DNA from: Apostichopus japonicus
Taxonomy: Eukaryota > Echinodermata > Holothuroidea > Aspidochirotida > Stichopodidae
Assembly: GCF_037975245.1 (NCBI RefSeq)
Contig: NC_092565.1
Coordinates: forward strand, 14,351,499-14,415,498
Direction of reading: 5' to 3'
DNA: 64,000 bases
The position numbers were made by a program, and so were the translations under genes. The notes beneath the pieces were generated by a model. That model worked only from the letters and a program-made list of their open reading frames with translations, searched no databases and was not told where the DNA came from. Positions 17,103-43,371 of this stretch are shown piece after piece; the first letter of the stretch is position 1, and the number at the start of each line of letters is the position of its first letter.

Positions 17103-17485
17103 CAGTGGTGTAGGAAGGTACTTTTGAGTGGGGGGGGGGGGCTGAAGACTGATGGCCAGCCTGGGGGAGGGGTCTAAGGGGAGGGGGTGTCCCCCTCCCC
17201 TTGGAATTTTTTGCATTTCCAGGTGGCCTCAGATGCAATTTGGTGCAATATAGCACACTTCAACACCCACTCCATTTTGTAAACTTAATTTTGTATTTTC
17301 ACCTGGCCTTAGATGCAATTTGGTGCTCCAAATGAGAATTTTTTCTCATTTGGAAATGAAAAAGGGGTTTTCTGACTTGCGAACCAGGGGGGCGGAATGA
17401 TACTTCCGTCCCTCCACATTTTTCACTGGGGGGCTGGCACCCCCCCAGCCCCCCCCCCCCCCCCCCCCCGGTTCCTACGCCCTTG
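17103..17485 (+). mobile_element. Complete hAT-type MITE with 8-bp target duplication
   Basis: Starts CAGTGGTGTAGGAAGG at 17103 and ends TTCCTACGCCCTTG at 17485; the inverted termini match as CA(G/A)(T/G)GG(T/C)GTAGGAA. Identical 8-bp direct repeats TATTGTGT flank it at 17095-17102 and 17486-17493. An 8-bp duplication plus CAG-type termini is the hAT signature. The 383-bp interior is G/C-run rich and non-coding. Confidence 0.9.
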
Positions 17486-17994
17486 TATTGTGTATTAGTG
17501 AGGATTTGGAAGACATTTTTTGTTAGTAATAAAGGAAACCGTAAGATAATGAATTTTTCTGTTGATGGAACTTATTTCATTTGCAGTGTATATTATCTTT
17601 TTTCTTTTAGCTACACCATAGACAACCAATGAATATAAATTAATTAAAATAATAGAAAAGAAAACAAACAAATCAATTAAAATTGACTCAAATCTTGAAG
17701 GTAACATCATGAAGAAGTTTGATTGTCTTCCAACCAAAATGATTTTGTCGTTAAAACTATTTTGCATTCAGTGGGAACATTGTATTATTCCTCTAACAAA
17801 ACATTATGTAATATTCGCATAGAACCGGACACTGCTCATTCATAATTGAAAGATGTCTGTGGTTAAACCTGTTTGTCCGCTCTTAATTAGCCAAGTCGGT
17901 AGCTGTGTTATCTTATCGTACAGAAAATTTGTGTGTCCCACAAATTAAGGCACAGTGTCAAAAGGTAGGATGCTGAGGGGGCTGTATAACACAT

Positions 17995-18366
17995 TTAAAG
18001 GGTGTGAAGACTTGCGCACAAACAAACGTCTCATGCCGGTATTAAATCTGACCTAGTTTCGAATGAGGTGTAACAGAAGTGTTAGACACCACCATTGATC
18101 CCAGAAAATACACACAGCTTGCTACCGTCGGTAATTAGATACTAGTGTACAGTTAGTACATACAGCTGCGGTCAATACCCACAGCACAGTGTATAAACGA
18201 TACAGCGATGGACATCTCAGGTCTGGATAAAAGATAACAAGGTATCACGTTTCATTACTGTCTGCATTTTGTAGCGACAAGAAGTAAACTTCAATTGCCA
18301 GCAACGGAAAGTTAACTTTTTCAGAGCGCTGCATATGGTTTGGGGCGAGTCTTCAATGACTTTTAA
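17995..18366 (+). mobile_element. TTAA MITE family A, intergenic copy
   Basis: 372 bp bounded by TTAA at 17995-17998 and 18363-18366, with left end AGGGTGTGAAGACTTGCGC and right end the complement of GTCATTGAAGACTCGCCCC. Closely similar to the copies at 8011-8382 (reverse) and 45196-45547. Confidence 0.85.
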
Positions 18367-20485: not shown

Positions 20486-20806
20486 GCTTACAGTTTTCAA
20501 AATCTTTCAGAAACTCTTTTACAGAAACTACAAATCTTTGTTATTAAATTTGACTCGTTGTGGAATGGTTTTTCATAGGACATGCCTACCACAGCTAATA
20601 GTTCTCAAAATCTCTCAGAAACTCTTTTACAGAAACTACAAATCTTTGTTATTAAATTTGAACTCGTTGTGGAATGGTTTTTCATAGGACATGCCTACCA
20701 CAGCTAATAGTTCTCAAAATCTTTCAGAAACTCTTTTACAGAAACTACAAATCTTTGTTATTAAATTTGACTCGTTGTGGAATGGTTTTTCATAGGACAT
20801 GCCTAC
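20486..20806. repeat. Three-copy ~109-bp tandem repeat
   Basis: The text CAGAAACTCTTTTACAG recurs at 20508, 20616 and 20725, giving a period of 108-109 bp with very few differences between copies. Lies 0.9 kb below the SLC5A7 stop codon. Confidence 0.9.
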
Positions 20807-21711: not shown

Positions 21712-22392
21712 CTACTTTTCATAAGGTGGAAGTTCCTCGCTGGAGGAGGTAGGGGTGTCCTCAGCAATCTCCTCCCTGAGGGGTTCCTTAGAAACCGATA
21801 CGGGCATACCGGAGGTAATGCCCTTGCCTACGTCTAGTAATTTTTCCCTCTGAATGGGGTCATTGGGCAGGCCGCTTCCTAGAGCGTCCATTTCTGGACC
21901 TAACTGATTAAGCTGTACGTTCTCGGCCTGGACAGATTCGTACTTGGAGACACCGGCCGGGGGAAGGTTAATGACGCACCGAAAAATATCCCACTCTGGC
22001 TTGATGCGACCGGATTTAAAGAGATAATCTAAGGAGTAGGAGACTACCAATATCGTGATGAAGGAAGCGGACATAGCAAATGTACGAAATGGAAATAACT
22101 GCTCGTTGTCGTAGAAAGGGTACTTTATTAAAACTGGTATTTTAAGGGTGGCATCGCCACCCGCTACTCTAAAGAAGAGACCTATGATATACCCCAGTAA
22201 CGATCCGTAAGTATTGCATTTTGAAAAATAAATAACGCAGAACAACTGCGGAAACAAGATCACGAATACAAAATCCGAGCATAGAAACCAGAGTGCATAG
22301 ACGGATTTGATGGTGAGGCCGAGAATGGTGGCAGCGATACCGACTACAATCATGGTTATCCTCATGCACCAGAGAAGTTCATACTCTGTAGC
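21712..22392 (-). CDS. SLC5A7: SLC5A7 coding exon 8 and stop
   Basis: Acceptor CCCCTACAG|; 681 nt ending at TGA... on the minus strand at 21714-21712. Encodes [20 protein letters not shown], the last transmembrane helices ([40 protein letters not shown]) and a cytoplasmic tail of about 80 residues rich in E, P and S. The tail contains [11 protein letters not shown] where human has the trafficking segment KNENIKLDELA, and it ends [11 protein letters not shown]. Confidence 0.94.
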   Translation of the reverse strand, partial: ATEYELLWCMRITMIVVGIAATILGLTIKSVYALWFLCSDFVFVILFPQLFCVIYFSKCNTYGSLLGYIIGLFFRVAGGDATLKIPVLIKYPFYDNEQLFPFRTFAMSASFITILVVSYSLDYLFKSGRIKPEWDIFRCVINLPPAGVSKYESVQAENVQLNQLGPEMDALGSGLPNDPIQREKLLDVGKGITSGMPVSVSKEPLREEIAEDTPTSSSEELPPYEK

Positions 22393-25300
22393 CTGTAGGG
22401 GTGATACAAAAGCAGAGGTGTCAATCAGGTTCGTTATCATAATATTAGACAGCAAGAAATACCGAAGAAATTAAAAATATCGCATTGTAATTTCTTGCTG
22501 ATCCTACACAATGACACAATGCAGTATAAGCTTTAATCATGTTTGAAGGACTTGCTTTCCCTTTCATATGCAGTAATAAAATACTCTAGATTTCTGCCAT
22601 CTGCATAACAAAAATTTTTTATTCCAGTTGTTCAATCTAATGGCTTCAAGTGTGGAAAGGGTCTAATTGTGGACAAAGCAATTAGCTATTAAAACTGTAG
22701 AAATAAATCTCATTCTGGTGCCACCTTTAGAAATCGAGCAAAAACCATTAAAAACAAGAAGAGAAGTATATATCCTGTTCATACTCACACTCTGTATTAA
22801 GAGCAGTTTGCAGACATTCCTGACAAACAAAATACTAGCAGAGGAAGCAAGTATCCTTCTCATACTCACATACTGTCTTATGACCAGCATATAGGCATTC
22901 CTGACTAACATAGAACTAGCAGAGGAAGCAAATTTTCTTTTCATACTCACACTCTGTCTGAAGACCAGTTTGTAGACATTCCTAACAAACATAGAACTAG
23001 CAGAGGAAGCAAATATCCTTTTCATACTTACATACTGTCTTATGACCAGTTTGTAGGCATTCTTAACTAATAAGGAACTAACAGAGGAAGCAAATATCCT
23101 TTTCATACTCACATACTGTCTTATGACCAGTTTGTAGGCATTCTTAACTAATAAGGAACTAGCAGAGAAAGCAAATATCCGTTTCATACTCACACTCTGT
23201 CTGAAGACCAGTTTGTAGACATTCCTTACAAACATAGAACTAGCAGAGAGGATGGAGGAGTCTGCTGATGACATCACTGCTGCTGATACCGCACCCAAAC
23301 CGATAAAGGAGATGATATTAGGGGTGAGATACTGGATGACAAGAGGTAGAACGAGCTTGGGATCCTTGGCAGGTAATTCTGGATCAGGGATGTCTGTCTT
23401 ATTCCAGTCTGTAAATATAAACACAAGACAAAAGAAAAAAGACACCACTGATTTTATGATATACTTAAAATGTTTGCTTATGTTTCATAGCCATATTACA
23501 TTTTCGACCTCCCGTAAAATTCACTAAGGTTAGAGTCATGCTCGGTACAAACTCTATGAATTGTTAATCATCTCGTTGAAAGAGGTTTGGGCTGCTGAAT
23601 ATTCTCACCAATATCCTTCACTTCAGCCTTGCAATGACAACTTCAGACCTGTCATTTATAAACAAAATAGGCTAAACTGTGTGCATCTATTATTCAATGT
23701 GGTAGCTGACTAGCTAGGTCTGTTTATAGATTAGTGTAAAATATTCATGTTGATAAAGTAAAACAGATGTTCTCAAGCTTGTCAACATCAGATGCATTAT
23801 AAATGCAATATAAGCAAACAACATATTTATTTGGGTTCTAATGCTTTGATTGTAAAAGGATTTTTCTGCATATCATCCATCTTTGTCAGTTCAACTTACA
23901 TTCATGCCTGACATTTACATGCAAAGTTAGGCTTACGTAGGTGTCACAGTGTGGTTTAGTGTGTGTGTACATAGTTATGTGTAGATGTACGTAAGCATGT
24001 ACTCACAGCGTTAGTTTGTAACTGGTTTAACAGATGTAACACCTTCGGGAAATTTAAAGAGATCTTCTGCCAACTGAAGCTGTTTTTAGCAAACTTGGTG
24101 GAAATTTTCGGCATAATTTTTAGGTCAAAACTAAATCTTCATAGCATTTTGTTATCACCATGGCATATTAGTTTTTTAAACTTGGTAATATTTTGTAAAT
24201 GCACCTGGCAACAGCAGAGTGGGAATGATGTCATCAGAGCAATGGAGTTGTGTTTTCCATTATAATTTTAAACGATCATTTCCACAGATAATCTATTATA
24301 TTTTTGATGAAATTCTAACAACAGGAGAACATTTAAGAGCTAAGCATACATTCCAACTGTGTCAGGTTCCATGGACAATAAAAAAAAAAAAATATGACAA
24401 CATGACAAAGTAAAGCACTTGAAGAAGAAATACCCACATAACAGCTAGGCCACCTACTGTGATTATATTTCCTGGAAGTTAATTTAAACTAGTTTAAAAT
24501 AGGTTATACTCAAATTAACCATCTTTAAGTTATGTTCAGGACAAGTTGTTTTAGATGGGGTTTACAAGTAACAATTTAGAATATTTTACTCTACGATGTA
24601 TATTTTGCACTGTCTGCCACCAGATGTACTAGACCTTGAAAAATCTGTTGATAACTATTTCAAAGACAAATATCCAACCGTAACATAGATTAATTAAGCT
24701 ACACTATAGAACTGGTATTCCTTGGCATTGAATAAGTTTGGCAGTATATAAAATATATAATTTTGCAGAAGGTGTGGCAACCTTCATATATATTTTTTTG
24801 TGGGGGGGGGGGTGGGTTGAAGGACATAAACACACATCACTTATTGTTAAAAGCAGTAATAAATCTTTCCACAAAACTTGAGATTTTTTTCTATCCTGAC
24901 GTGGGACAAATTGTGATGCAAAAACAAGTTTTCCCCGAAACTGGAGATATCTAGTATTAGTTTCGTGTACAGTAGTTTACGGAGGAAGCAACAGAGCAAC
25001 GCACGTACACTTGACAAACGAAATCCTATCCATCCGAGAATCTCCGGGGAAGCTCATCAAAATATAGATGGCGACCTACCACTGGCTAGATTTTAATTAA
25101 GATGAAATATGATCGGACATAAATATGATCGTTGAAGCCTCCAGCTAATTCAATCTATTGGATGGAAAGTTTGCTGCGGCACGACGACGATGTGTGAATG
25201 AATGCTGACGTGGATGGGTGGAGACCTTTGCAGGGAAAACCACAGAGATGAAGAGAGAGATTGCACTGCACCCTAAGAGAAAGTCGGGAATCTTTCCATG

Positions 25301-28300
25301 ATGCAGGAGGGGAAATGTTTATATTCAGATGCAGCTATTTGAGTGAAAAACTGATTAAGACACCTTCATTATCAGTTCAATTGGTATATTTTCTTAATTT
25401 GGTTAAATAATAACACACACACACACACACAATTGAAGATTCTCTGAGTCATAAATTACATACAATATCAACAATTCAGCCGCTGTTATATGTGACCGAA
25501 CAGAGAATGCTTGGCGGGGCAGTGTTTAAGACTAATTAACTGACTTGAGTTTCTGTTCCAAATGTCACTTTAATTAAAACAATTTCAATTAGTCCAATGA
25601 ACGGTTAAGGTTTCATAAAGTAAAACATTAGCAACAGCCACCACCCTCAGAGAGTCAACTTAGACTCTCGTTACTGTTTATTAAATTAAAGGAATTGTCT
25701 GGTGGAAGATTTTGATACATTGTCCTTGTAGTATTTATTATTTTTCTCTTTCTAACCATGTAAAAATTGACCCCATTCGACATTTTCTTCTTGTAGAAAT
25801 CTGGTTTTCAAATTCACCAGTTTCTCACCAAAAGTACCGTTTGTTCGAACGCTTCAATATGGTGATTGACGTAGTGCTGGCAAATAGGCAAAACAGGCGA
25901 CTTGAAGTTAGCACTCCCATTTCCGCAGCAATACACTCTCACATGTAAACGCACATGTGATTGCCTATTATATAACGTGCATATCGCAAGTGTATATCCT
26001 ACTGTACCATGCCCAGTTGGTATACGAATAGCGTTGCACAAAATATACTCTCACACTCAAACCAAAGTTCATAAACTGTTCTTCGAAATCGCTGAAATAA
26101 AATTCACGGATCAAATTTACAGTAAAAAGAAACTTGAAAAGCATTCAGAACACCGAAAGATGAAACTTGGCGGAATCGATGTCAGAGTAGAATGTTGTAC
26201 CGAAAAGCTTAGGCTTCGCAGAACTGTCCCATTGTAAACGTTAGAGTAGCCTAAATGCGAACATTCCTCGCGTTGGAGCTGGATAGCGCGATGTATAAAC
26301 AACAAAGAGTCTGTGCTGTTAAAACTTATCTTGTGTTACTCAAAGACAACAAAACCACCGATCTACTACATATATGGCGAATTAAGGAGTTTTTGAAAAC
26401 ATATCAAATTTATAAGAAATTTCACCGAAAATTAAGGAAGAAATTAATCTGTATACAAAAGCGGTTTTTGTTGTGATTACTGTAGCCTACATGCGAACAT
26501 TCCTCGCGTTGGAGCTGGATAGCGCGATGTATAAACAACGAAGAGTTTGCTGTTAAAACTTATCTTGTGTTACCAAAAGACCACGAAACCACCGATCTAC
26601 TACATATATGGCGGATTAAGGAGTTTTTGAAAACATCTAATTTATAAGAAATTTCACTGAAAATTAAGGAAGAAATTAATCTGTATACAAACGTGGTTTT
26701 TGTTGTGATTACTGTAGGTACTGAACGGAGCGTGGGTTATGTCACAATGATGCATTAGCATAGTTGACGTTACGTTCTGTACTGTTCAAATCATATTGGA
26801 AGTGTCCATCCTTATAACGATTAAAAATCTTTTCTCTGTCAAACGCAACATTAGCGTTCTCATACTTTGACAACATGTTTGGAAAATTATTTATCATTTT
26901 TTAAGGTAACTTCTTTGGGCCACCAGACAATCCTTTTAACTCTGAACATTTAAGCATTCCATTACCATACAATATTGTAGGTTCATGCACTGCCACAAAT
27001 CAACTATGTAGGTACGTACCACACCACCATCATCACCACCATTATCAACAGTGCCACTACCACCACCATACTGATCACCACTATTACCTGTACCACTACT
27101 ATCACTTACCATCATAGTCACCAGTATCACCACTACTCACCAAAAACCACCTCCTTTACCACCACCACTACCACCACCATGAACACCTGATTACCCCCAT
27201 CACCACCATCATCAACATTGCCACCATCACAACTACTACCACAAGCATATACTGATCACCACTATTACCTGCACCGCTACCATCACTTACCATCACAATC
27301 ACCAGTATCACCACTACTCACCAATAACCACCTCCTTTACCACCACCACCACCACCACTATGAACACCTTATTATTACCTCCATCACCACCATCATCAAC
27401 ATTGCCACCATCACAACTACTACCACAAGCATATACTGATCACCACTATTACCTGCACCACTATTATCACTTACCATCACAATCACCAGTACCACAAATA
27501 CGTACTCACCTATTACCATTTATTATTGTCATCTTTAATGAGGGTAGTCCTGCTCAGTGCAGAAGCACTGCTTTCCAGAGTAGCAACAATAGTACCCATA
27601 AACGACATATATATGTCGTTATACATATATGTCAATATGGACATATATAGGTGCATATTGAAGGGAAGTTTTTGGGCAGTACTTGGAGATACCTCCTATT
27701 TATTTAATATCCTACTTAAATATCCTACTTAAGTATATCTACGTAAAACAAAAGATAAAAACAAGTAGGAAATAACCAAAGCAAAATTTGAAAGAACAGA
27801 GAAATTTTTGGATACAATTATGAACCTGAAACCAATAACCTTAAGTAAGGATTACAAGACTGTCTGCTAAACAAACATTACCTTTCAGCTTTTTTAAAGA
27901 AAATACAATCAAAAGACATTTCTTGCTAAACACATATCTTGGTTTTGAATAAATCAACAATGACCACGAATGATCTAGAATGAAGTTTCGTCCATATGGC
28001 CTGCTCATGCTCTGTATTTACCGTTTCCAACAGATCAAATTCTGGGCTTTAAGAATAATTTGTGAAGCAAAAATAGGCATTTTTTGTAGGTTAACTCAGG
28101 TATAAACTGAAGGCTAACTGTTGATATAATTACCAGTGTTTCTGGCAATAGCACCGATGAGAACAGATGGTACGGCCATAACGATACATCCAAAGGCAGC
28201 AATAAACGACAACATCTGAGCCCGTTCAGCAGATTTGGAGGACAGTACACGCTGAAAGTACACTTGCCATGGAATGCCGCCAAATACCTACAAATATGTC

Positions 28301-31300
28301 ATGGTAAGAAAAAGTACTGCAGTGTAAACCAAAAAAATAAATCTGGATGTTTGCTTTTAGTGCAAATTAGTAGTGAAACTGTACCAGGAGAGACAAGAGG
28401 TCATGAAAGGGCCGACTGGGATTTAAAGGATGGTTGCAAACTAGACTGATCTACTATACGGATAACAAACTATAACAAACTGATAACAAACTATAACAAA
28501 CTGATAACAAACTTTACTGATCTACTATACTGATAACAAACTATACTGATAACAGACCATCAGATATCTCCATCTTAACTGTATCTTTATTGAGGATTAT
28601 CCATAAACATATTCATGCAACAACAACAAAAAACCAAAAACTATTGTACACTACTCAAAAGTCAGTTCATCTCTCAAATGTTTGATCCAGCAAAATGTCA
28701 TTATTAGAGCAGCATTTCTATCTCTAAAGAATTCTGCTTTGATAACATATCTGCACATCTGGAAGTCCTTTCTCTTCACTTTTGACCATCAGACATCATC
28801 CTAAGCCACACTCGTGGAATTTTTATCGGGGTAGCAAAACTTCCTTCAGTTTAGGAGAGTATGAAGACAATGTAGGGGAGGGGGGGGGTGGGAGGGGCAG
28901 GGTGGAGGAGAAGAAGAGAAGAGGTTGCACTTACCAAGAGTAATGCATAGTCTATCCATACTCCAGAATATTTGGGATCCCATTCACCAAACCACAAAGT
29001 AGAATCAAAGACTGGAGTCACCGATTCATGAGTCATGGCAAATGGTATGCACAACCACTGCAAGACAGAGAGAGAGATGAATAATGTAAGACAAATAATT
29101 CTTCAGAAGAAGTGATGAAAAACAACACATTGCAAATACACTTGAGAATATATCTACGATTGTTTTGCTGTTTGCAGTATTATATGCTAGTGGAGGTATG
29201 TTTTTATGGTAGAGCACAACTGGGAGGGGTGGGGGGAGGGGGGAGGGGGAGAGATTGATCATCATCAAATTCCCAGGGAGTATTTATTTGGATGACTTTA
29301 ACCGTTACAAATTCATGTGGTCGTGACCAGTTTAGGGAAATCACAAGATAGGTCACCAAATGGAGCGCAGGGTTTTGAAAGCCATAGAATGCAGGTTTTA
29401 AAACAAATATATGATAAATCATTAATTATAAAACCAGTAGGCCAGTGGATCTCAATAGAGGGCCCCACTGGTTAAATTCCCAGCACTTAGAAATGATTTC
29501 AATCGCCCCACTCCTTCTAGATAAAGAAGTCAAGAGGACACAAAGGCTTACCAGGCCAAAGAAGATGCATATGAGCTGTACAACATCTGTGTATGCCACC
29601 GAGTAGAGTCCCCCAAAGAAAGTGTAGGCTACAGTTATGCATGCTGATATGATGACCGATATGTTGATGTCCATGTCTAGGATGACGCTTATGGTAGCTC
29701 CTGCGGGAAGGAAATTAAAAAGTCTTGTCCAAATATTATCAATAAGAATTATCCACTAATTATATTTGTCCTTTCTTCCTTTCTTTCTAAGATCATTCTT
29801 TTTTACACTGTTTTGTGATTTACGTGGATGGAAGCGAACGTGTGTTTCATTTTACCTTAGTTTGTATTGGGGATTATCTGATTCAACTTTATGTTATTTT
29901 GTTTCTTCTTTTCCCCCGCTCTTATTTTTTTTCTATCTTCTTTGTTAAGGATATCATTCACATTTCTCGGACATGATTTCAATGCCACAGTTCTATTTTT
30001 TTTTTTTAAATAACAAAATTCCTCGGTCATTTCTTCTTTGAAATGATCATTTAAAATAAACTTGAATTGAAATGAAACACTGGCATGGACTTTCATTCAC
30101 CTTTCCATATTCTCATCACCTGCCATTTCCATGGTAACTCTTTGAACAGAGCTCCTGATTATCACTACGATCACACGTTTTAAATATCTAGGTTTTACAG
30201 TCGGGGACATATAAACCCTACAGCCATGAATGTGCTTGACAATAGTGAAAACAGAATTGAACAGCACAAATCTGTCGAGTAGAGCGTGACCAGAGGGGTC
30301 GGTTATACAATCTCTAACATTTTACAACACACTCACACAAACTTTAAAAAAAACAACAAAAAAAACATGCTTCCCTTTCTTTCTGCTTCACAAAAGCAAC
30401 TTGTTTTTCTCTATTTTGAGATTTAGAACGTCCATGTTTTTCTTACCAAGAGCAGACAAAATGGCTGCAGACCAAAAGAGCTCCCCCATCAAGGCGGGCA
30501 AGAACAGCAAGCCACCCATCCGAGAACCGTACTTGATCTGGAAAGGATCCAACATAGTCACATATCCTTGCTCTCTCATCACTTTGGCAAACAATAGTCC
30601 ACCTGTGAGGAAAGATTGAAAGAAATATTCAACTTAATCTGGTGGGGAAGGGGTGGGGGGGGTGGGGGGTGGGTGTACACCACTCATTCCAAAAAAAATA
30701 TATCAAAGTAGTTATTAGCACAATATTGTGAGAAGACCTACTCATAGGCCTACTTTATAGATTCAGTATGCCCTAGAATGCATCCTTTGACAAACACACT
30801 AATTCCCTCAGGCTTACATGTGAGTCACTTTCAACAAGTTCCCCATGACCACACCCCCCTCTTTTCTGAATGCCTGGATCTGCCGCACCTTCTTGTGGGC
30901 TGCATGCGATCAGTCAGGTTTTCACACTGAAGCAGACCTACATATTCGGTAAGAAGTTCATTCCAAGCTTTACTTTGGAGTTGCTGAACACTTGATCTTT
31001 GACCTCTTTGACAGGTTTTCAGAATTGACCTCCTAGTGACCTTTGACCTCCACAAAAACAATAGATGCTTGTATTCACTTTAGTCGACGCCCTCTATTAA
31101 GTGTTCATTTGAGGTTTAATGTTGGAGTTAATGAGTTTACATGGTTTTAGACTTTGACCTCTGTTGACCCTTGACTTCCCCCAAAACAAAAGGGTTCTGG
31201 CACTCATTGAGATGGATCCTCAAGCCACACATGAAGTTCATCAAAGCTTACTTTTGAAGTTTCACGTTTACAAAATTTTCAGACAGTCAGCCTTTAGTGA

Positions 31301-34300
31301 CCTCAAATGCCCTTTGAACTCCACAGAAAACAATAGGGTTCTTTGTGTTCACAATAATGGTATAGAGATACAAACCCAACATATGAAGTTCAACTCCATG
31401 TATCCCTTGAGTTACATATATGTGTCTCCAAGCCAAGGCAGTACTTACATATACACACACACACCTACGATGAACATCACATAGATTCCGTTTGCTTCTA
31501 GCAAGGAATTGAAATTGCCCAGCATTGCAAAGAATACTCTCGTTGCGACCTAGAGAGGTAGCTAGTGCTTTGTGAATAAGAAGGATATCTTAAAATTCTC
31601 AATAGCAAAGATCTTGCATTGGAAAACTGTGAATATTCTGACCAACAATTTCTGTGCTGGACATGTTGTCTAGACAATGGGCCTAGACTGCAAGTGGGGG
31701 ACCATCAAACATATGGAGAAATGCTGAAGTTTCTACTTCAATATTTGATTTCAGCTGTGTCTATATAATGTACTACTTACCTAGGACAAGACTAAGAGCA
31801 TAGCCCCATGGAGCCTGGGCCCAAATTAAGCCTAATGAATAGACATATTCGGCTGTACCATTTATATATCCGCCTCCGACCCACGTAGCTGAAATTCAAG
31901 AGAAGAAAAGGGGGGGGGGAAATTGTTACAAAATCAATTAGCAACTTCTTAACTCTTGAAACAGAAACACTCATGTTTTGTTAACGATCATTTTAGTCAG
32001 TAAACTTAATGAGATATTTAGTATGATAAATTTGGACCAAGAAAACTTGAACTGAAACTATTACATTTTATATATAATTAGACAAAATTACATGATTAAG
32101 TGGCTATGGGTCTGATAATTCGTAGCTTCATATCAAAAACTTATAGTTCTAATAGTTCACCTGCAGAACTCTGTAGATCACACACTGAGGTCCAAACTAA
32201 ACCACTCCAGTGTAAACATAATAGCCCCTTGTTAATCTCTGTAGATCACACACTGAGGTCCAAACTAACCACTCCAGTGTAAACATAATAGCCCATTGTT
32301 AAACCCTGTAGATCACACACTGAGATCCAAACTAAGCCACTCCAGTGTAAACATAATTCCCCATTGTTTGTGACCTGACTCCTCCTCCAAAGAGGCGATG
32401 GGGGCCGGTTCAAGCCTCTGGGACAATTATGTCACCAGGGCCCTCTTTTTGTACTTTCCATGCACCCCATATATCCTTGGCCTCCAATTACTGGCCCCGA
32501 AATTGATCCCTGGACCCCAGGCTCTTAGCCTCTAATCAAGCGTGCTAGCATCAGGTACAAGGATTCAACTGAAAAGTATACAACTTTTCAATTAAACATG
32601 CAAGTACTTTACTGATTGAATCACTAATAAATGTCAAATTTCATTTAAAGAGAGGGAGCAGAAATAAACAACTTTAGAGTGGTTGACTGCAGCTGTGTTC
32701 CAGGAGGTGTAAACAAGACATTTACAAGCTCTCAGCACCTTCACAGTATTCCTATCACAATATATTCACTAGCGGAATGCAAAATGTTGATCACCACATA
32801 TATTTAAATATATCAAGAGTAACACCTGCTCTGGTACAGACTTTATCTTGGAAACTGTTTATGCGCTCTCTTAGATAGGTTTATTTAACCGAAATAATCA
32901 CTCAAGAACTCTCTCTCTTGAAATGAAGGTTGGGGAATTTCTAGTCTAATTGAAACCCAATTCAAGCAGAAACTAAATCCAGAAAATACGCTTAAAGCAA
33001 ACTTCCGGAGCAATTACGTCGGAGGATGTTAGTGATGGAGTGATAACGGAATGGTTTTAATCTCGGTGAGTTGCCATTGTTACCAAGGGACTCAATTTCA
33101 TCTTCTTTGTTTAATGTTACCATTGTTACCAAGGGACTCAATTTCATTTTCTTTGTTTAATGTTGCCATTGTTACGATGGACTCATTTTCATGTTCTTTG
33201 TTTAATGTTGCCATTGTTATGAAGGACTCATTTTCATGTTCTTTGTTTTATGTTGCCATTGTTACTAAGGGACTCAATTTCATCTTCATTGTTTAATTTT
33301 TTTCATTTATGACCAAGATGTGAATAGAATAATTGACTGGTTTCTTAGTTTTGAGACAACTGCATCATATACTACCAGACATTACAGTTTTAAACTGAAA
33401 AAAAAAATCCCAGAAGTATTTTAGCAACCTTGAACAACTAATATTCAGTATTATAGTGATCCAACATCAGAGTTATGTATATGAACCCATTTTTATTTGT
33501 ATTTTTTGTTTAATTTTACATGTGACCTAATGAGGGGCTCATCCCAACAGCATTTATATCTCTTCCAAAGATATAATAACAGTGGAATAGTTCTGAGCTC
33601 ACTGTTAGGTAATTATTACCCTTTCTTTTATACCAAAAGACTTAACTAGGAGACACCCAAAAAAAAAATACTGGTTAGGGTACAATTAGGAACAAGGACA
33701 CTTAAAAACCAACGTGCGATTCTGGAGGATTGAAAAAATACCCTGAAAGTATATAGTTGTAACCCTTGAGAATGGTATGTTGGGAATGAAGAGGAAGTGG
33801 ACCTTGACCCTCAAGAAGGTCAGTGAGGGCGCAGTACCAACTTACGTTTGTAAGCTATGATGGGCTGATTTGAGTATATAATGGTGACAAGATCAAGACA
33901 TATGTGTACATAATGTGCATTGTCAGCTACTATGTTACCATCCTTGTACATAATCTATATATCATACGTTGTATGCGTTAATCATGTATCACGACCACCT
34001 GACACGTTACCACCAACATGTAATCTATGGGATATGTGTCAGCTACTACTGCAATTTTGTACCAACCACCTGCTCTGCAGTACTACGTTTTGTTGATCTA
34101 TATCTGAAAACATGCGTTGATCTTGTATCGCCACCTGTCTTGTTACTGTAAATTGCACATTGTTAATGTACCTACATATATATGACATACTGCTTTAATC
34201 TTGCATGATATCACATGCTGTGTTTTATACTGTTTAATCTTGGACCATGACCTGCTGTGTTACTGCATTTTGTGATCTATATCTCACATAAATTTACAAT

Positions 34301-37300
34301 TTATACATTAATGCTATTATCTTGAATGACTATGGCCACCTCAGCCTGCTGCATTACTGCAAGTATGGGATTTATTGCATGGTCAGTTGTTGGCTTTGTG
34401 ATCTATGAATTAAAAACTGGACTCTAATTACATCCAAAGTTTTGGTGTATGAATATTTTTATACAAATGTATAGAAATGTATGTTCCCCCGAGCATGATG
34501 GATATAAATCAGTGGATCACGCATCCATCCAGCTATGAGCAAAGAACTAGGATAAGAAAGACTTTTGTGCTTTTTGCACAAAGTCAACTTTGTTTTTGGA
34601 GTGCAATACGTTACTGCACCGCCTAACACATGTTACCCAGCGGACCAATGACGCTCTCCCAGCAAAGTGCATGATTCCATTAATTTCATGAACGAAACAA
34701 AGGAAATCTGTAAGTTATAAATAACATACATAGATCTGATCACACACTATTACACATGAGATTCACCAGGAAAACATAAAGTGATAAAGTCACATTCATG
34801 AATATTTGCTGTTTTCTGTCTAGAGTTCAATGAATGATATGGGACAGAATAAAAGCCTTGTGCATCCCCTAATGTAAACGAATGACTCTGCTTCTAGTGC
34901 CGTGATGACTGATTTATATATACACGAAGGACTGGTAACGTTAGACGATAAAATGGAAAAGACAGAAAAGAGAGAGAAAAGTCAGGATCAATTCTAGCCC
35001 TGCCTTGCCGGTCCAATTAAACCTTCCTGATGAAGGTAGCCATTAGAGTAATGGAATTAAAACGTTCTTGGCTTTAAAGACAGCCAAACTGATTCCTACA
35101 CGTCTCTCCGGGGACAGTGAGCTCCTGATTGGATGGAACGTTGATTAACGCTTCCGCTCTGTGCAATTTTACAACTATCTATCGGCGGAAGGTATAGCCG
35201 TGGGGCACTTTTCTCCTCCGAGATGGAAGAAAATGAACAGTGGCGAGATAGTACCGTCTATAGTGGCAGATATCGCCGAAGATATGAGTTTATATTTTCG
35301 GAGAATCAAATAGAAAATTAGTCGAGGACTTCCTGTGTGTCATAAATTTGTACAATTGATTTCCTTAAGTGTTCTAAAACTGCACACGGAAGTCATTCGA
35401 CTATACACACAGAAGAGGGCAGGAACTACGGTGCGATTACATGTAGCTATAAATGTCGGTTGATGACACGTGTGAAGTCGTAAATAATATTGATATTCAA
35501 ATCTGTTAGTTCTGTAAATAATTACAGGAAATACTCTTTAATAATACTTTGTTATAATTGTGAAAGCGTTGAGAAATCGGTCACCCACATTTCTCCCCTC
35601 CCTCTTCCCCTTTCGCCCCCTTCTTTCCTTCCTCTCAAATAATAGTTAATATTTCCTCAATCTTTCCTCCCATTTATTGTCACCAGACACTGCAGTTTTT
35701 TAAATATTTTCTTCAATGCTTGCAGATACTAGGAAGGACAATTCCAGCAGGGAGATATGATTGCATAAAATTCGTTTCATATCTTATTGCTGTATGTGTT
35801 GTCCTTGCATTCAATGTGTAATTACCACACAAGTTTTTATGAATCTAGCATTCTGAGGGGAATAAAACATCTGCAAAGAAATCTAAAGACTCTAAAATGA
35901 GACATATTATTCATAACCTTCACAGAAAGGAATAAAAAATATCATCAAATGACATTTCATTTAGCATCAATCATGCAAAACAAGCTTAATGAAAGTGATT
36001 CATTTTTGTCAGGAAGTGGAAGACTATATGTAATTTGGGTAATGAATCATGTCTATATATTTTACTTTTCGGAAAATATGTTGAGATTCAGTTCTAGTTC
36101 AATTTGGGTATATTTATTTCTAGTTGTTAAATACCACTTCTGAACTGCTACATAGTCTATGTAGCAGGAAGGAGGATGAGCAGGAGGCACATAGGGTAGA
36201 AGGAAAGGGGAAGGGGGTGGGAGAGGGACATGTTTCCTAAACATAGAATGTGGTATATTATATAGCTACCATAATTAGCTATATGATAAATGATATAGCA
36301 TACCATATTTTGGTGAGTTGAATCTCAGATGTGAAAGTAGGACTATATATATGATTTAGCAGAGGGCACCTAGGTAGGAGGATGAAGGATAAGGAGGGGA
36401 GCAGGAGGGGGGGAGGGGAGAATACTATTCCACAGTGAGATGCTGCTATGAATTCAATTTGAGATCACATATACCATACAGCAGTGTAGCATTACTAATC
36501 AGCAGTAACACATAGTACCATTTAGCAATAATCATTATTGTCATTATAATCCATTATTTTTTATTATAAATCATTATCAATGCCATTTTGTTCCCCCAAA
36601 ATTACCAAGTTTTGGGAATCCTTCTGGTTAAACGTCCACAATTTTTATAGAATGGCATGGTATTTCAAGCCCTTTATTGTTAATATAAGAGTTAATACTG
36701 TAAGTTCCATAACTAATTACTTTACATCAAGTGCGAGCTTCACACACAAGACTTCATAGTGCATATAAGTGACTTCCATGTGAGCTCTAAGATGTTTCTC
36801 TTCTCATTCAAATTGTTTCAATAAGTAATTTAGTTTCAACAGATAATTACAATAACAACATTTTAGCCTCGACTTCTATATGCAAAATAGGACTATTAAA
36901 TTCATTACTCAATCACAACATTTTCACAATTCAACAATATATTTTCTGTCCATACTTTAATGGCAATACAAAATGATGCTTTTTAACCAGCATCTTTGTA
37001 CGAAAATTTATATATAAAATAAAAAATCAGAATTCCATATTTACTTGTACTCCCACATTAATATGTAAATGCCCAGATGTGCTCAACACACATATATACC
37101 TCATCTGATTCCTGTTTGCACGTTGAGCTATCAACAGGCCACTTATTCAAAACGCCATCATGGTTTACTCTTGGTAAATATTAGTCAAGTCTTTTATTTC
37201 TGCATTCAGTCGACAGATACCTTCTAAAGTGGCCTCAAATAGACTGAGCTAGTATTATCACCATCCTCTCTGTCTCAATTATAAGAGAGAAGCATCGAAT

Positions 37301-40300
37301 AGACGGACAGAGTAAACCATACAGGTGTCTTAATGAGCAAACATATACTGTAGCCAATAGGGGATAAGGGGGGGTGCTTCAGAATCTATATAGTGCCACA
37401 AGACCACTCTTTAATGACTTCTTTCCTCTCTCCTAAATATTTGGAAGAACATTACACCATGAGTGTAGAATTTCAAGTCACGTTTCTCCGATTAATAATT
37501 CATTTGTCACGAAAGTATATATCCAGAGGCACATATCAAACTGTACAGTAAACGTGACTGATGTCTCATTTTTCTCACAAAGGTGAAAGAAAAATTGCAG
37601 TTGTGTTTTGAGATAATTGGAATTCAATCACATTTACGTTCTTGCAGCAGTTTATATTTGGCTACCCTTTCCTGCATGTGACCGACATTTTTTATCTGTA
37701 CAGCATTTCAAAGCAAGAAATAATTTGTATAAATTCCACATTATTTACAAAAAATCGTGGTGGTTGTATCTAATGCAAGGAGCATATAAACCATAGCCAG
37801 GGTTTTGATGGCAGTTATATACCATCTATAAAACACTGGTCAGTGTATTAAATGTTAATTGTGTGTGTGGGAGGAAACTGTTTGCTATATATCAAGGCAA
37901 ATGTAAAAGTATTATGTAAGTAACTTTGGTAGATTTTCAATATGATAAATGATTTTGTTGTTGTTGCAATTGACAAAATGCTATTTGAAAATATAGAGTG
38001 AAGAATAGAAAGGTTTCTTCAAACCCTGTGGAGGTCACATCAGTTAAAATGAGAGTTACAATGCTGTAGCCTAGGGCAACACTTCTAACATGGCTATATG
38101 ACATTAGACTAAAGGCCTATATTTAGCCTATAATTCTGAACAGTTCCAGCCATATGATGCATTATTGTACAAACTCAGATTGTCCAGAACAGTATATATC
38201 AATGCTGTTCCAAAGGAGTCCTATTTGAATTGATGACCAATAGCCTTAATAAGTTAAGCCTGTTGTCATCCTAACAATAGGTAGTTAGCAAGCCCTTGTT
38301 CACTCTGTATAAGTACCCTAATCTCCTCAGACTAAGCTCTGCCTAATTTGCATACTGGGGAAGACAGCTAAAGGAGCTGTTGTTATGCTTTACTGGTTTT
38401 AATGAATAGACGATCAGATTTGGCAAATCCCTTATTCCCTGTACTCAGATCTAAACTAGTGTCAACTACACAGAGCAATATTATTGTTCTGTACTAATTC
38501 TCTTAATTGCATCTTGTACATTGTCTTGACTCTTGGATCTGACCCCAGAGGTCACCAATTTTCCAAATGTTCAAAGTCAAGCAATACTTAGGTAAGGAGG
38601 TTTATATTGCATATGTATGGTTCCCATGCTTCCAACTTATTAGATTTTCAAGTTTTTTTTACTGTGAAGCTTAACATGAGGACATAATTTTTTAGACTAC
38701 CACCTACACTGTAGTAAGCCTAACAGTTGCTACTCTTGCAATATGTTCAGTGTGCTTTTAATACACCCAGCTATCATTAAATTGGAAATTAAATCAAAAG
38801 TCACAAGTGCATATATATATTTATCTAACATTAACAGCCCCATACACTTTTTATACGAAATCATGAAACCAAGTCAGCATTAAACAAGGATTTTTCTCAT
38901 TTTTCCCTGACTAAACTTCACAATTCCAGGACTTTCAAGACCCAGCAAATAGGTTTCTTATATTCATTTTTAGATTAAAACAATGTTTGGGTTATTATTG
39001 TTAATTAGTACTGCAATGTTAGCACTCAAATATATATCAAACAATTTAATACTTGACTATTCTTTCTCTCTTATAAGCTTAAAGGTTCCCTGCAGTACAG
39101 TACTGTACATCTGGTACCAAACTTTCTGACAGTCTTACCATTAAACAACAAAATAGTTATGTTTATTGATTACATGAGCAAAATAGTACAGTGTCCTCCA
39201 TTTTGCATGAATGATTTTATCAATGTCACCTGCACTTCTTTAGAAATATGTTTCAACATATAATATCATATCAACATATATGTATTCAAGCTGACTTTCT
39301 TTGTACCCTTTTGCACCATGAGACTCCTAGCTGCTCGTTTTTAAATTTATGTCATTTATATAGATGTTAATAACATTGAAATTAATTAAATAACCTGGCA
39401 GAAGGGAACTTTAAAGAAAGTTATGAAAGTTTTTATCAATTAAGTTAATTTAGTAAGCAATGTCAGTGAAGTTGTTAGTCAGTGTTCGGGCACCCTCATG
39501 TTAAAATCTATCAACATACTTAAGAGTGTACACAGTAGATATATATGTAATCTGTTTATGAAATTTACTGACATGTATGCTAAGAAACACATGTTTATCA
39601 TGCAGTCACCCTCATATAGTGACAGTTACTATAATAATTCAATTGCACTATTTATACACACATTCTAACAAGGTGGTAAACTTTAAAGCAGGAAATATGA
39701 TTCCACAGACATGACTACAGAAATGAGGGGGGGGGGGGGGGTGGGGGATTGGAAGTATGGTATAGGGACTGTATGTGACTGTATGTAAGATTACCAATTA
39801 ACTTACATCTAATTGCTCATGCTAAATATGAAATACCATACGTCACAAATGTAGTTAAAATGATTGCAAAATGATAGCACCATTCTGCATCTATTAGCCG
39901 CCTCCACCCCAGGGCAAACATCACCCAAAATTTGTTCCTTCCTCCCCCACCACAAAAATAAATGGCTACAAGCTCGGACTAGAAGAACCCAGAGAAGTAG
40001 AGGAACTGACTATGGAAGATTATCAGTCAATACAATACATCAGTATCACAAACACAGTTTTTAAGGGCCTAGTATAGGCCAATACTACTGCTATATCCAG
40101 AAAGTACGCAAAATTCTCGGTTTCACTCATAAAACAACTGCAGTACAACTACTCTCTCTGGTTAAAAAGGACTCTAAACTCTAAACCCTTTTGGAATCAT
40201 GCCCGTTTCAAGCACAGTATTTCCTGCATGTAGTTTGCAAAATGAGTAATATTGCAAGTGCTTTTGGATTTTTTATCCTTTCCTCAATGCATAGTTCAAA

Positions 40301-43300
40301 TTACTACTTAATACCAACCATGAATCTAAGGATTTGAGGTCACTACCAAATCATACCACTACACACAGGAAGAGTACACTTCCTAAGCTGAACAGGTTTG
40401 TGCTTCCATTGTTTACTTGAACTACAGTCCAAAGATATTACAACACAAACCAACAAACTAATATTGCAGGTCACCTTGTCAAAAAACTTTGTACTGCAAC
40501 TCCGGCCATCCTAGCCAAATTCATATATGTACAGCTGAGGCTCCCCACGGTAGCAACTGACAGGACACGGACAGGTACTAGCTGATAAGATGTATGCCCT
40601 TATAAAATAAACTGATCAACTCAAGGACTTATCTAATTGCTGTCTTTTAAAACTCAATATTGTCACAAGAAACAGTAGTCATCTGACATTTCTACTCAAG
40701 CTGAATGGCTTGGTTGTCAAGGAAAAGAAGTGTGTTTTGAGCATAAATATCAAAGCAAGTAAAGGGAGAGAGCTTCTGAAAAGCTAGCTAACAGTAATGA
40801 AAGTTTTCTTTGCTTTGGGCGAGGGGATCTTTTTCGGGGGGGGGGGGGGAAGGGGGGAAATTTTTAGTTCACTCATTACTACATAAAGACCTAAATGTTT
40901 CTCTAACTAGATGTTTACTATTTTATATGTAATGTTTGCATATGCATGGTAGCATAGGTAAAAACAAAGGAAAGATACAAGGTACATCCAACTGTATAGT
41001 AGCGAGAGATGGGCTTTGCAGAACCGGGAGTATATAAATTTCTTTTCTACCATGCAGTGACAATAAAACATTCTTAAACACAAGTATGGATGATATTGCA
41101 TTTATAGTTTTCCACGTTATCGGACTGATATTTTTGTAATATCTTTGATGTGACATGCGCCCTCTACTAACAATTATCCTTGTTACCACCATTGCAAACT
41201 AAATTAACGTCTCCCCAATTCTCCACTCAACCACCAGGAGATCTAGCTGAGGAGATAATCCAGCTGAGGAGATAATCCATTTTGACAATAAATAGAAAAG
41301 GAAATTAAGAAGATAACGAAACAAAAAATAAACAAAAAAATATTGGCTTAACATATAAACCACAAAAGTACATTCACTGATTAGGCTTAGCTTCAAGGCC
41401 AAGTTGTCATGAGAAGTTAGTCAAAGGCCGTTAGCATCAGGAGATAATCGAATCCAACTAGATGGGCAAAGCTGACAATACCAAACTGAGAGGTTCTACT
41501 ACAACCCCTCCCCATCCCCTCCCCCTTCCCTTCCCCCTTCTTGAGAATATTTAGTTAGTCTATATTACTGTAGAGATGGTCAACATGTGAATATAACTCC
41601 AAAATGTTTCTATGTTGCTATTTACATATTGCTATCATATTTTATCTAAATTCTGTTAAATCCTGGAATATCATCATCTTCCTCTTATGTTGTGATTTTG
41701 TTGGGGATGGGAAATATTTAATCTCCCTATTTTTGTGAAAGAGAGGTTGGCAAGGTCTGCAATAATGATTATGCACTACATTCTATATTAAACTTTAAAA
41801 ATCACAATAATTAATTAATTTGCATAATATCAGAGGAGATACCAGAGGAGATGGGGTCTGTATGAGGGAGAAGAGAAAGGGAAAGGGCAAGTGGGAGGCG
41901 GGAATTGGTTTAAATGAGGGACGCATTCAGTTAACTTTCACTACTCTTACCAATCCACTTCCCTATACCTCTACAACTGCTATATTTCACACTTTACTGC
42001 TTCATATGTAACTGCTGAACATAAAATCCTACCCATTGGCTTTTATCGTTTGACATAAAGCCCCCCCCCCCCCTCCCTACTCGACAAAATATTTGCAGAT
42101 AAACCTCCAACTGTTTTCGCCTTCACATTTTTATTCCGAAATCCTGTCCTTGTTCAGTCTCGAACCCAAGTTTACGAAATTTAATTATAACTCACCGAGA
42201 TTGCAACCTACACAAAAATTTATAGCAATGAGATTTCTAAACTAAGACCTCAATAATTGACCCATGAGGGAAAAGCTGGCAAACAACCCACCGGGGCCAA
42301 TTCAGTCAAGCAAAACAAAAACGTCAGAGTCGACGAAATATGAGATTTAGGCAGCGCGGCAGCCTAGATTAGAAACTTAAGTGTCTGAAGCATAATAAAT
42401 TTGGACAACTGAATTTACGACTGCAGAGCAAGAAATCTCTCTCTCTCTCTCTTTCAATCGGACTATGGATCTGCTCCCCGGACAATGTTCTGCAAGGAAT
42501 CGTAACTGCGCATATAGGATCCTACGATATCCGAGGATTAATGCTGCAAAAATTGAGGTTGGGTTCAGGTATTCCCAATATTCTAAGTATGTATTTAGAC
42601 ATTGCGAGTTAGTAAACACTAACATTCACGCAAATTCAAATAATATGAGAAGTTCATGCATTAATAATGTAGTTAAGATGATATATGCAGCAGCCTTTGT
42701 GTTTTTTTTCAATGTGCACGAAGCAACGAGGCAGATATTACTGTTTTAAGAACCGCATAATGTTACAAACAACTCTTGACAATCAACGTACTGCGTCTCA
42801 TAAAGCAAAGAAGCAAATTTGACATTAAACAATTGTTCAAACCGCGGTTACAGTCATCTATATCTCCGTTTATCCTGATCGCAGTGTTGAACCATACGGT
42901 TTCGGTCAGAAGTAAAGTGTATATGCCAATCAGGCCCTGTCATAGTTTTAAACTTGTAAGATAAACATACTTCAGGGTTGACCCTGGATCAGTGTTGACC
43001 TCATACTATAATCCGTTAGCACTTCACATCACACAGCTTAGGTAAATTTTGCCCTTTTTGCTCTTGTAAACAAACTTTCTGATCGATGACAGAGCACAGA
43101 TCTGATAAAAACCATTTGAATTTCTTTTACTGTTGAACACAAAGCTCTGGGTCTGATCCCGAAAGTAAACGCATGCCTACGTGGATGAAAGAGGTAAAAT
43201 CTCACCTGTCATTGTAAAAATGCCGACGATAACTCCTATATTCCTACCGGCGACCATGACCTCCTCCGAGTCAGTTTGTCCCTTTGTCTTTCTGGCTGCC

Positions 43301-43371
43301 CATAGCCCGACCGTCAAGATCAACAGATAGAAGAGCGCAATGGCCACTATACCACCCCAATGAGCTGCCAT
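21712..43371 (-). CDS. SLC5A7: SLC5A7: high-affinity choline transporter CHT1, 8 coding exons
   Basis: CHT1 is the Na+- and Cl--dependent plasma- and vesicle-membrane transporter that takes choline into cholinergic terminals for acetylcholine synthesis. Eight exons (43371-43206, 31888-31781, 30602-30447, 29700-29552, 29057-28935, 28287-28134, 23408-23194, 22392-21712) join in frame to 1752 nt, 583 residues; human CHT1 has 580. Family signatures appear in order: [89 protein letters not shown] and FPQLFCV. A 13-helix SLC5 topology is expected. The start has A at -3 and G at +4. Intron 1 spans 11.3 kb. A splice acceptor 24 bases upstream of the ATG indicates a non-coding first exon further upstream. 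The end of exon 7 is embedded in a six-copy 81-bp tandem repeat of splice donors. Confidence 0.96.
22393..22780 (-). other. SLC5A7 intron 7, part outside the donor array
   Basis: Unique AT-rich intron sequence between the end of the 81-bp array and the exon 8 acceptor. The SLC5A7 exon 7 frame stays open beyond the array to a stop at about 22663. Confidence 0.7.
22781..23266 (-). repeat. Six-copy 81-bp tandem array of SLC5A7 exon 7 end plus 5' splice site
   Basis: The plus-strand motif ATACTCACA (or ATACTTACA) recurs at 22781, 22862, 22943, 23024, 23105 and 23186, exactly 81 bases apart. Each unit holds about 57 nt of the coding end of exon 7 and about 24 nt of the start of the intron. All six keep a consensus donor (five GTGAGT, one GTAAGT at the 23024 copy). 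Because 81 is divisible by three, the frame stays open across the array, giving 27-residue repeats of the type [24 protein letters not shown]. Confidence 0.95.
23194..23408 (-). CDS. SLC5A7: SLC5A7 coding exon 7 (shortest form)
   Basis: Acceptor TATTTACAG|; first consensus donor AGT|GTGAGT at 23193. Encodes [20 protein letters not shown], then [20 protein letters not shown] and [14 protein letters not shown]. This end matches the human protein (MFARNIYQLSFRQN) and joins exon 8 in phase 0. Five further in-frame copies of the exon end plus donor follow downstream, so longer forms of the exon are possible. Confidence 0.93.
23409..25685 (-). other. SLC5A7 intron 6, part near exon 7
   Basis: AT-rich intron sequence with a G-run at 24803-24812 and a (CA)n microsatellite at 25411-25430. 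No exon or gene recognised. Confidence 0.6.
25686..26939 (+). mobile_element. 1-kb TTAA-flanked transposon, copy 2 with internal duplication (SLC5A7 intron 6)
   Basis: TTAA at 25686-25689 and 26936-26939 bracket termini AGGAATTGTCTGGTGG and, on the other strand, AAGGATTGTCTGGTGG. It is the inverted counterpart of 4417-5423 but about 250 bp longer, because an internal block of about 236 bp is tandemly duplicated (26246-26481 and 26482-26717). No transposase is encoded. Confidence 0.87.
26246..26717 (+). repeat. 236-bp tandem duplication inside the TTAA element
   Basis: The sequence GTAGCCTA(A/C)ATGCGAACATT starts at 26246 and again at 26482, with the blocks near-identical. The copy at 4417-5423 carries the block only once. 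Confidence 0.88.
27005..27530. repeat. CAC/CAT trinucleotide region with ~183-bp higher-order repeats
   Basis: Built from CACCAT/ACCACT-type triplets. The larger text ATACTGATCACCACTATTAC recurs at 27068, 27249 and 27433, so units of 181-184 bp have been duplicated. Open frames here, rich in H, T and P, are products of the triplet composition. Confidence 0.88.
27601..28133 (-). other. SLC5A7 intron 6, part near exon 6
   Basis: Starts with an ATATATGTCGT inverted-repeat cluster at 27606-27650; the rest is AT-rich intron with nothing recognised. Confidence 0.6.
28134..28287 (-). CDS. SLC5A7: SLC5A7 coding exon 6
   Basis: Acceptor ATTTGTAG|, donor ACTG|GTAATT; 154 nt. Encodes [20 protein letters not shown] and the helix [20 protein letters not shown]. 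The [14 protein letters not shown] signature is near-invariant in CHT1. Confidence 0.95.
28288..28934 (-). other. SLC5A7 intron 5
   Basis: GTAAGT...TTTGTAG intron that includes the 28440-28560 tandem repeat and a G-rich tract at 28876-28905. No exon recognised inside. Confidence 0.7.
28440..28560. repeat. ACTGATAACAAACTATA tandem repeat
   Basis: Short tandem units of GATAACAAACTATA-type sequence repeat about seven times in SLC5A7 intron 5. Confidence 0.8.
28935..29057 (-). CDS. SLC5A7: SLC5A7 coding exon 5
   Basis: Acceptor GTCTTGCAG|, donor TTG|GTAAGT; 41 codons. Encodes [20 protein letters not shown] and the following [20 protein letters not shown]. This extracellular-loop region is weakly conserved, but phase and flanking exons fix it. 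Confidence 0.9.
29058..29551 (-). other. SLC5A7 intron 4
   Basis: GTAAGC...TTGCAG intron with a G-rich tract at 29221-29252; nothing else seen. Confidence 0.7.
29552..29700 (-). CDS. SLC5A7: SLC5A7 coding exon 4
   Basis: Acceptor TCCCGCAG|, donor CTG|GTAAGC; 149 nt. Encodes [20 protein letters not shown] and [20 protein letters not shown], the central SLC5 helices including the YTDVVQ signature. Confidence 0.95.
29701..30446 (-). other. SLC5A7 intron 3
   Basis: GTAAGA...CCCGCAG intron; T- and A-runs, nothing else seen. Confidence 0.7.
30447..30602 (-). CDS. SLC5A7: SLC5A7 coding exon 3
   Basis: Acceptor CCTCACAG|, donor CTTG|GTAAGA; 156 nt. Encodes [20 protein letters not shown] and the [20 protein letters not shown] helix. 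Confidence 0.95.
30603..31780 (-). other. SLC5A7 intron 2
   Basis: GTAAGT...CCTCACAG intron containing a G-rich tract (30640-30672), the TTTGACCTCC repeats and an exon-like open stretch at 31465-31549 that does not fit the transporter frame. Confidence 0.65.
31010..31345. repeat. Degenerate ~150-bp TTTGACCTCC repeat, about three copies
   Basis: Units with TGACCTTTGACCTCCAC followed by A-rich AAAACAATAG and GGGTTCT recur near 31045, 31170 and 31315 in SLC5A7 intron 2. The second and third copies also share CATGAAGTTCA-type text. A related single copy occurs near 49190-49235. Confidence 0.65.
31781..31888 (-). CDS. SLC5A7: SLC5A7 coding exon 2
   Basis: Acceptor AATTTCAG|, donor CTAG|GTAAGT; 108 nt. 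Encodes [20 protein letters not shown] then [16 protein letters not shown]. The loop after NGTAE is two residues shorter than in human (YSLGLIWAQ against VPGYGLAWAQ). Confidence 0.95.
32171..32373. repeat. Three-copy ~67-bp tandem repeat
   Basis: CTGTAGATCACACACTGAG starts at 32171 and recurs at 32239 and 32306 (the third copy has GAGATCC). Period 67-68 bp, in SLC5A7 intron 1. Confidence 0.88.
32374..32560 (-). mobile_element. Possible tRNA-related SINE remnant
   Basis: The minus strand has GCTAGCACGCTTGATTAGAG then GCTAAGAGCCTGGGGTCCAG, which resembles a decayed tRNA-like head with a weak B-box-like GGGATCAATTTC. It is followed by a GC-richer body unlike the AT-rich intron around it. The A-box is poor; it could be another repeat type. 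Confidence 0.35.
33051..33300. repeat. Five-copy ~45-bp minisatellite
   Basis: CCATTGTTACCAAGGGACTC-type units start at 33074, 33120, 33166, about 33210 and about 33254, with ATTTTCATGTTCTTTGTTTA between. In SLC5A7 intron 1; the open frame through it is a by-product of the repeat. Confidence 0.85.
33890..34400. repeat. Degenerate repeat region in SLC5A7 intron 1
   Basis: Loosely repeated modules of the kind GTTACTGCATTTTGTGATCT and TAATCTTG(T/C)ATGA with a spacing of roughly 100 bp. Too diverged for unit borders to be fixed by eye. Confidence 0.45.
34401..43205 (-). other. Bulk of SLC5A7 intron 1
   Basis: About 8.8 kb of AT-rich sequence with no recognised exon, RNA gene or coding similarity. 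It contains G-rich tracts (36190-36230, 36395-36420, 39727-39744, 40838-40858), a C-run at 42060-42073, a (CT)n run at 42437-42452 and a two-copy AGCTGAGGAGATAATCC duplication at 41245-41279. Confidence 0.55.
43206..43371 (-). CDS. SLC5A7: SLC5A7 coding exon 1
   Basis: Encodes [20 protein letters not shown] through IVGIFTMT plus one base of an alanine codon; donor ACAG|GTGAGA. Contains transmembrane segment 1 and the [20 protein letters not shown] loop typical of CHT1. Confidence 0.95.

Follow-up and report, generated by a model that had tools for sequence, protein, structure and literature searches.

The gene for a high-affinity choline transporter of the SLC5A7 type, located on the minus strand of a 64,000-nt window of the Apostichopus japonicus genome (GCF_037975245.1, NC_092565.1, positions 14,351,499-14,415,498 of the forward strand; one assembly), carries the end of its coding exon 7, together with the adjoining splice donor, in six tandem copies. 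As an earlier sequence-only reading of this DNA had claimed, the copies follow one another at exact 81-bp steps, each retains a consensus donor in phase 0, and the frame of exon 7 remains open through all of them. We consider, with a probability of roughly 0.55, that the array is a boundary-spanning minisatellite whose downstream donors may be leakily used, with the resulting in-frame insertions being tolerated.

The transporter gene and its six donors

The gene model comprises eight coding exons (166, 108, 156, 149, 123, 154, 215 and 681 nt, from first to last), seven GT-AG introns and an open frame of 583 residues. The human CHT1 protein, used as a tblastn query, produced seven clear blocks and, for exon 5, a weak one (E 0.29), extending from 43371 to 21829, as well as a second match within the array; a further three matches at E > 1 were put down to chance. 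A PDB search with the 216 residues of exons 7-8 retrieved 8j74 and 9bfi (E ~1e-68), and all three distinct PDB sequences at E<=0.001 were named CHT1/SLC5A7. The whole protein matched the Pfam family SSF (PF00474, Sodium:solute symporter family) over residues 40-428 (E 1.2e-36, 127 bits, cut-off 22.8). Human SLC5A7/CHT1 (PDB 8j74 and others) resembles the predicted protein in blocks distributed over its whole length, and the region of transmembrane helices (TM) 8 and 9 is common to both. Judged by these matches, the gene is an intact SLC5A7-type choline transporter gene, with uptake as its predicted function. No match at the gathering score was returned by an Rfam scan of the window. Four further minisatellites were located around the gene, one past its stop codon (20482-20806), one in intron 6 (27068-27495) and two in intron 1 (32167-32368 and 33070-33297), none of which touches a coding exon end.

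Tandem Repeats Finder (TRF) delimited the array to 22763-23248 at period 81 with 6.0 copies, 84% matches, 0% indels and a score of 636, and also fitted the same interval at period 243 (score 734). The coordinates given previously (22781-23266) were therefore wrong, although the repeat itself was confirmed by TRF and by the alignment of units (Table 1). The donor reads GTGAGT in five of the six copies and GTAAGT in copy 3, so that all six conform to GTRAGT; each is preceded by T at position -1, and donor 1 closes coding exon 7. In the exon-7 frame no stop occurs between 23484 and 22663, which takes it 40 codons past donor 6, and it is the only stop-free one, the other five frames of the array containing 5-20 stops each. 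As the open frame was inherited from the exon, its openness alone says little.

Table 1. Positions of the transporter gene, the array units and other features of the window
Feature	Coordinates	Strand	Remarks
SLC5A7-type high-affinity choline transporter gene	21712..43371	-	tblastn, exon model, PDB and Pfam matches
Coding exon 7	23194..23408	-	215 nt, phase 0 end
Intron 7	22393..23193	-	801 nt from donor 1; 396 nt from donor 6
Six 81-bp tandem units	22763..23248	-	each the last 55 nt of exon 7 and the first 26 nt of intron 7; TRF, unit alignment
Unit 1	23168..23248	-	type A, genuine end of exon 7; donor G at 23193
Unit 2	23087..23167	-	type B; donor G at 23112
Unit 3	23006..23086	-	type B, differs from unit 2 at 2 sites; donor GTAAGT, first G at 23031
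Unit 4	22925..23005	-	type A, differs from unit 1 at 5 sites; donor G at 22950
Unit 5	22844..22924	-	type B; donor G at 22869
Unit 6	22763..22843	-	type A, longest tree branch, continues into non-repeated intron; donor G at 22788
CHMP7-like gene pieces	9872-14182	+	downstream of transporter gene, opposite strand
Inverted dispersed repeat pair	4417-5426 and 25683-26939		89-92% identical
Segment repeated again	26246-26485 and 26482-26717		93%
One dispersed element, three copies	8010-8382, 17994-18366, 45195-45548		83-88% identical
Inverted repeat pair	1-200 and 17103-17306		92% identical
Satellite	62880-64000		68-bp units, ~17 copies, runs off window end
Open frame, presumably of reverse-transcriptase type	204-716	-	170 residues

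History of the array and comparison with neutral decay

Pairs of units differ at 2-19 of 81 sites and fall into two types, A (units 1, 4 and 6) and B (units 2, 3 and 5), arranged as A B B A B A. The parsimony tree ((1,4),6),((2,3),5) takes 33 changes, the minimum possible being 31, and the six best trees printed, of 945 rooted ones, are rootings of one unrooted tree. The sequence-only reading had described the inner copies as resembling each other more than exon 7, which is true of units 2, 3 and 5 and untrue of units 4 and 6, which group with exon 7; copy 4 differs from it at just one of the 55 exon-part positions. Homogenisation by gene conversion, to which that resemblance had been ascribed, was rejected as unnecessary, because a single duplication tree fits so close to the minimum.

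Judging from unit order and distances, four duplications can explain the arrangement. The exon end may have been duplicated twice, with the middle copy drifting to type B; the A-B pair would then have been duplicated and finally one of the B units, in a combination of single-unit and two-unit events. A recent expansion, the other origin put forward earlier, is a misfit for most copies, since all pairs except units 2 and 3 differ at 5-19 of the 81 sites; these distances suggest that the array is for the greater part not of recent origin and that units 2 and 3 are its only near twins. An assembly artefact might be suspected in a repeat region known from a single assembly; however, all six units are distinct, which a stuttered assembly of one unit would not yield, and we give this explanation hardly any credence. 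The copy-number polymorphism of which the sequence-only reading speaks is a supposition, the analysis having covered one assembly.

Selection on the inserted residues is not visible. With the unit-1 branch excluded, the extra copies carry 23 replacement and 8 silent changes against a neutral expectation of 2.7-3.7 to 1, and the deficit of replacements expected of an amino-acid-selected coding repeat was thus not found among them. Changes per codon position number 9, 11 and 12 (unit-1 branch included), 9 replacements and no silent change fall on the unit-6 branch, and replacements are not significantly milder than neutral ones by mean BLOSUM62 (P 0.21 and 0.33). The neutral ratio gives no sign of constraint on the inserted residues. 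The ratio, the flat codon-position counts and the unit-6 branch all favour a silent intronic minisatellite, in which splicing invariably starts from donor 1 and units 2-6, as neutral intron, have stayed intact by chance; we regard this as possible rather than probable.

Neutral evolution was simulated on the same tree with parsimony branch lengths, the root and ancestors of one reconstruction, and a simple transition/transversion model with the base composition of the window. The five extra donors all survived in 13-15% of runs and the array stayed stop-free in 33-47%, frequencies which likewise favour a silent array. The joint probability of intact donors, no stop and no indel was 0.011 at 0.05 indels per substitution, 0.003 at 0.10 and 0.0002-0.0004 at 0.17. 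The complete lack of indels, which contrasts with 62 adjacent mismatches, argues against silence: in ~30 changes, the local rate of 0.17 predicts ~5 of them. This rate was obtained from seven dispersed repeat pairs in the window (37 gap openings per 218 mismatches), after pairs of <90 bases, of >97% identity or touching a listed tandem array had been dropped; the seven are not independent, three of them deriving from three copies of one element. Nine other arrays of the window showed 67 gaps per 198 mismatches (single ratios 0 to 0.58), these nine having been hand-picked among 42 TRF rows, with the short or low-complexity rows and a single two-copy 39-bp row left out. Retained use of the copies, the alternative to recent expansion in the sequence-only reading, therefore has a mixed outcome, as amino-acid constraint is contradicted by the neutral 23:8, whereas the joint intactness of length, frame and donors is moderately unlikely under neutrality and supports it.

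Splice choice and the predicted protein

Scoring of the six donors, a check proposed in the sequence-only reading, was carried out with a consensus matrix. Donor 1 scored 2.19 and donors 2-6 scored 3.05, 3.80, 2.19, 3.05 and 2.19, equal to or above it, and no GT site of intron 7 other than these six scored above 2. Downstream donors being no weaker by this matrix, the exclusive use of donor 1 that a silent minisatellite entails would need a position effect. The possibility that RNA structure hides donors was tried and rejected, as the folding of the array was equalled or surpassed by 71 of 100 shuffled sequences (z 0.61). Among equal donors the intron-proximal one tends to win, a rule that was not used here. 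In competing-donor reporters, splice choice moved with the sequence placed between the sites, according to PMC1877881, so that donor choice in this gene is not predictable from scores alone.

Another possible explanation is that the units act as poison cassettes or new introns, the pyrimidine tract and TAG which they contain making each of them a 46-nt frame-shifting exon. The TAG sites of units 2-6 have 12-13 pyrimidines in 17 positions, the gene's seven own acceptors having 10-15. However, like sequence in exon 7 is ordinary coding sequence (15 of 17 pyrimidines), and the distance from a donor to the adjacent TAG is 35 nt by coordinates, short for an animal intron. A 46-nt exon, moreover, shifts the frame, and stops are met for five units out of five, inside the cassette (units 2-4) or in exon 8 (units 5-6). 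Such exons were rejected, and we hold this explanation to be extremely improbable.

The junction follows S357, which aligns with the N preceding ASDKE in human CHT1 (residue 371 by tblastn numbering). For the human protein, PMC11589582 assigns A343, S346 and S347 to Na2, and D349 and S350 to Na3; the latter two are stated to belong to TM8, and Na3 is open towards the cytosol. All these residues are upstream of the junction and, since the Na3 residues are on TM8 and Na3 is cytosol-facing, the insertion is predicted to lie in the cytosolic loop between TM8 and TM9. Donors 2-6 would add 27, 54, 81, 108 or 135 residues at this point, and the in-frame 27-residue steps between two transmembrane helices claimed earlier hold in both anatomy and consequence. 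The net charge of the insert is +5 when it consists of the first unit and +24 when it holds all five, and a basic insert suits a cytosolic loop; its most hydrophobic 19-residue window (Kyte-Doolittle) reaches 1.31-1.63, vs 2.51 for the best window of the transporter. An AlphaFold model of exon 7 plus array, computed without relatives, had a mean pLDDT (predicted local distance difference test) of 43 and was not used. Matches of the same segment to designed dTor proteins in PDB, and a below-cut-off Pfam match to an influenza PB2 domain, were taken as chance arising from repetitive sequence.

The in-frame steps, the charge rising from +5 to +24 and a position downstream of TM8, the bearer of the Na3 residues, would all fit a regulated isoform ladder, in which a controlled number of units tunes the transporter through its basic cytosolic loop. 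Amino-acid constraint is absent, however, and the RNA of the array folds no better than its shuffled versions (z 0.61); we consider a regulated ladder very unlikely.

The leaky, tolerated use of downstream donors that we favour could have come about as follows. A minisatellite would have arisen over the border of exon 7 and intron 7 and, because its unit holds both the coding end and the donor, copying made six phase-0 donors in one open frame. Donor 1 would yield the conserved transporter; as donors 2-6 are of similar strength, we propose that some transcripts use them and carry the longer TM8-TM9 loop. The insert would be tolerated and not selected, its frame and length being mildly kept and the identity of its residues not, which fits the neutral ratio of replacement to silent changes. 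A bolder extension is that the lengths in which a neuronal transporter is made are set by the copy number of the minisatellite, with selection acting on donors and frame, not on residues, and unequal exchange alone shifting the number of isoforms; this we consider unlikely.

Several points weigh against leaky use. Donors intact and no stop, with indels excluded, have a neutral probability of 4.5-7% (0.045-0.072), a figure that also counts in favour of a silent array, and because the array was singled out as intact, the neutral probabilities above, being uncorrected for this choice, are optimistic. A two-copy 39-bp array in the window, outside the nine compared, has 76% matches and 0% indels, and the units of a human CBS repeat discussed below are 'invariably 31 bp' (PMC2630376), which is not a codon multiple; as the former is indel-free and the latter has no codon reason to be, the lack of indels need not mean selection on frame. 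By the matrix, 51 GT sites out of 1427 across the gene span score at least 2.19 (real and array donors included), so such a score is no proof of use and silence is again favoured; 15 GTRAGT motifs occur in the gene span outside the array, and the gene's six other donors (2.57-7.33) all outscore donor 1. U1 duplex energies, contrary to the matrix, favour type A donors, with -8.9 kcal/mol for donor 1 and only -7.4, -7.3 and -7.4 kcal/mol for donors 2, 3 and 5. Donor 1 is not uniquely strong in either ranking because units 4 and 6 share its nine bases. Finally, in CBS c.844_845ins68, where a 68-bp duplication of part of an intron-exon junction provides two competing splice-site copies, splicing strongly prefers the more distal one and the upstream segment is lost (PMC2630376).

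If donors 2-6 are used, the gene is a natural test bed for the choice of the spliceosome among up to six similar donors of a single exon, and the copy number of a repeat alters a membrane protein in whole-block steps with its frame unbroken. Exclusive use of donor 1 would show instead that five similar donors can be silenced by their position or context.

Neighbouring features and known systems

Among the CHMP7-like pieces (Table 1), one of five matched Pfam WHD_CHMP7 (E 4e-9) and another had a weak, below-cut-off match to Snf7. The open frame on the minus strand near the start of the window resembles a fragment of reverse-transcriptase type. Relatives were sought in one scan of viral_contigs, where two stretches matched a pattern and none was a relative.

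Literature searches, in which no query joined choline transporter with splicing terms, found no donor array in a choline transporter. The sequence-only reading went too far in holding such an arrangement to be undescribed, since the general kind has a precedent in the 31-bp variable number tandem repeat (VNTR) of human CBS, which is named c.1444_1467+7(16_21) and placed at exon 13-intron 13 (PMC2630376; position also in a table of PMC1395315). Its name points to a unit of 24 coding plus 7 intronic bases, present in 16 to 21 copies, which would give a donor per unit. In a review, PMC5188458, a larger number of units is reported with lower CBS activity, and the repeat is placed in non-coding sequence at the exon 13-intron 13 boundary.

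The CBS repeat and the array described here are alike in that the tandem unit spans an exon end and its donor (55 + 26 nt in our case); the CBS units, too, vary by substitution while their length is fixed. Unlike our array, the CBS repeat has a unit that is not a codon multiple, consists of 16-21 units, is polymorphic in people and belongs to an enzyme gene. With c.844_845ins68 the array shares a duplicated junction that creates competing splice sites. A tandem genomic duplication has also been presented as a source of new introns in the RNA-dependent RNA polymerase (RdRp) of potato (PMC4974935), where, as here, splice signals are supplied by duplicated intron-exon structure; the potato duplication formed a new intron, whereas here an exon end and its donor were multiplied. 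By analogy with these systems, the donor-multiplying tandem repeat is of a known kind, of which the frame-keeping version in a transporter would be a variant.
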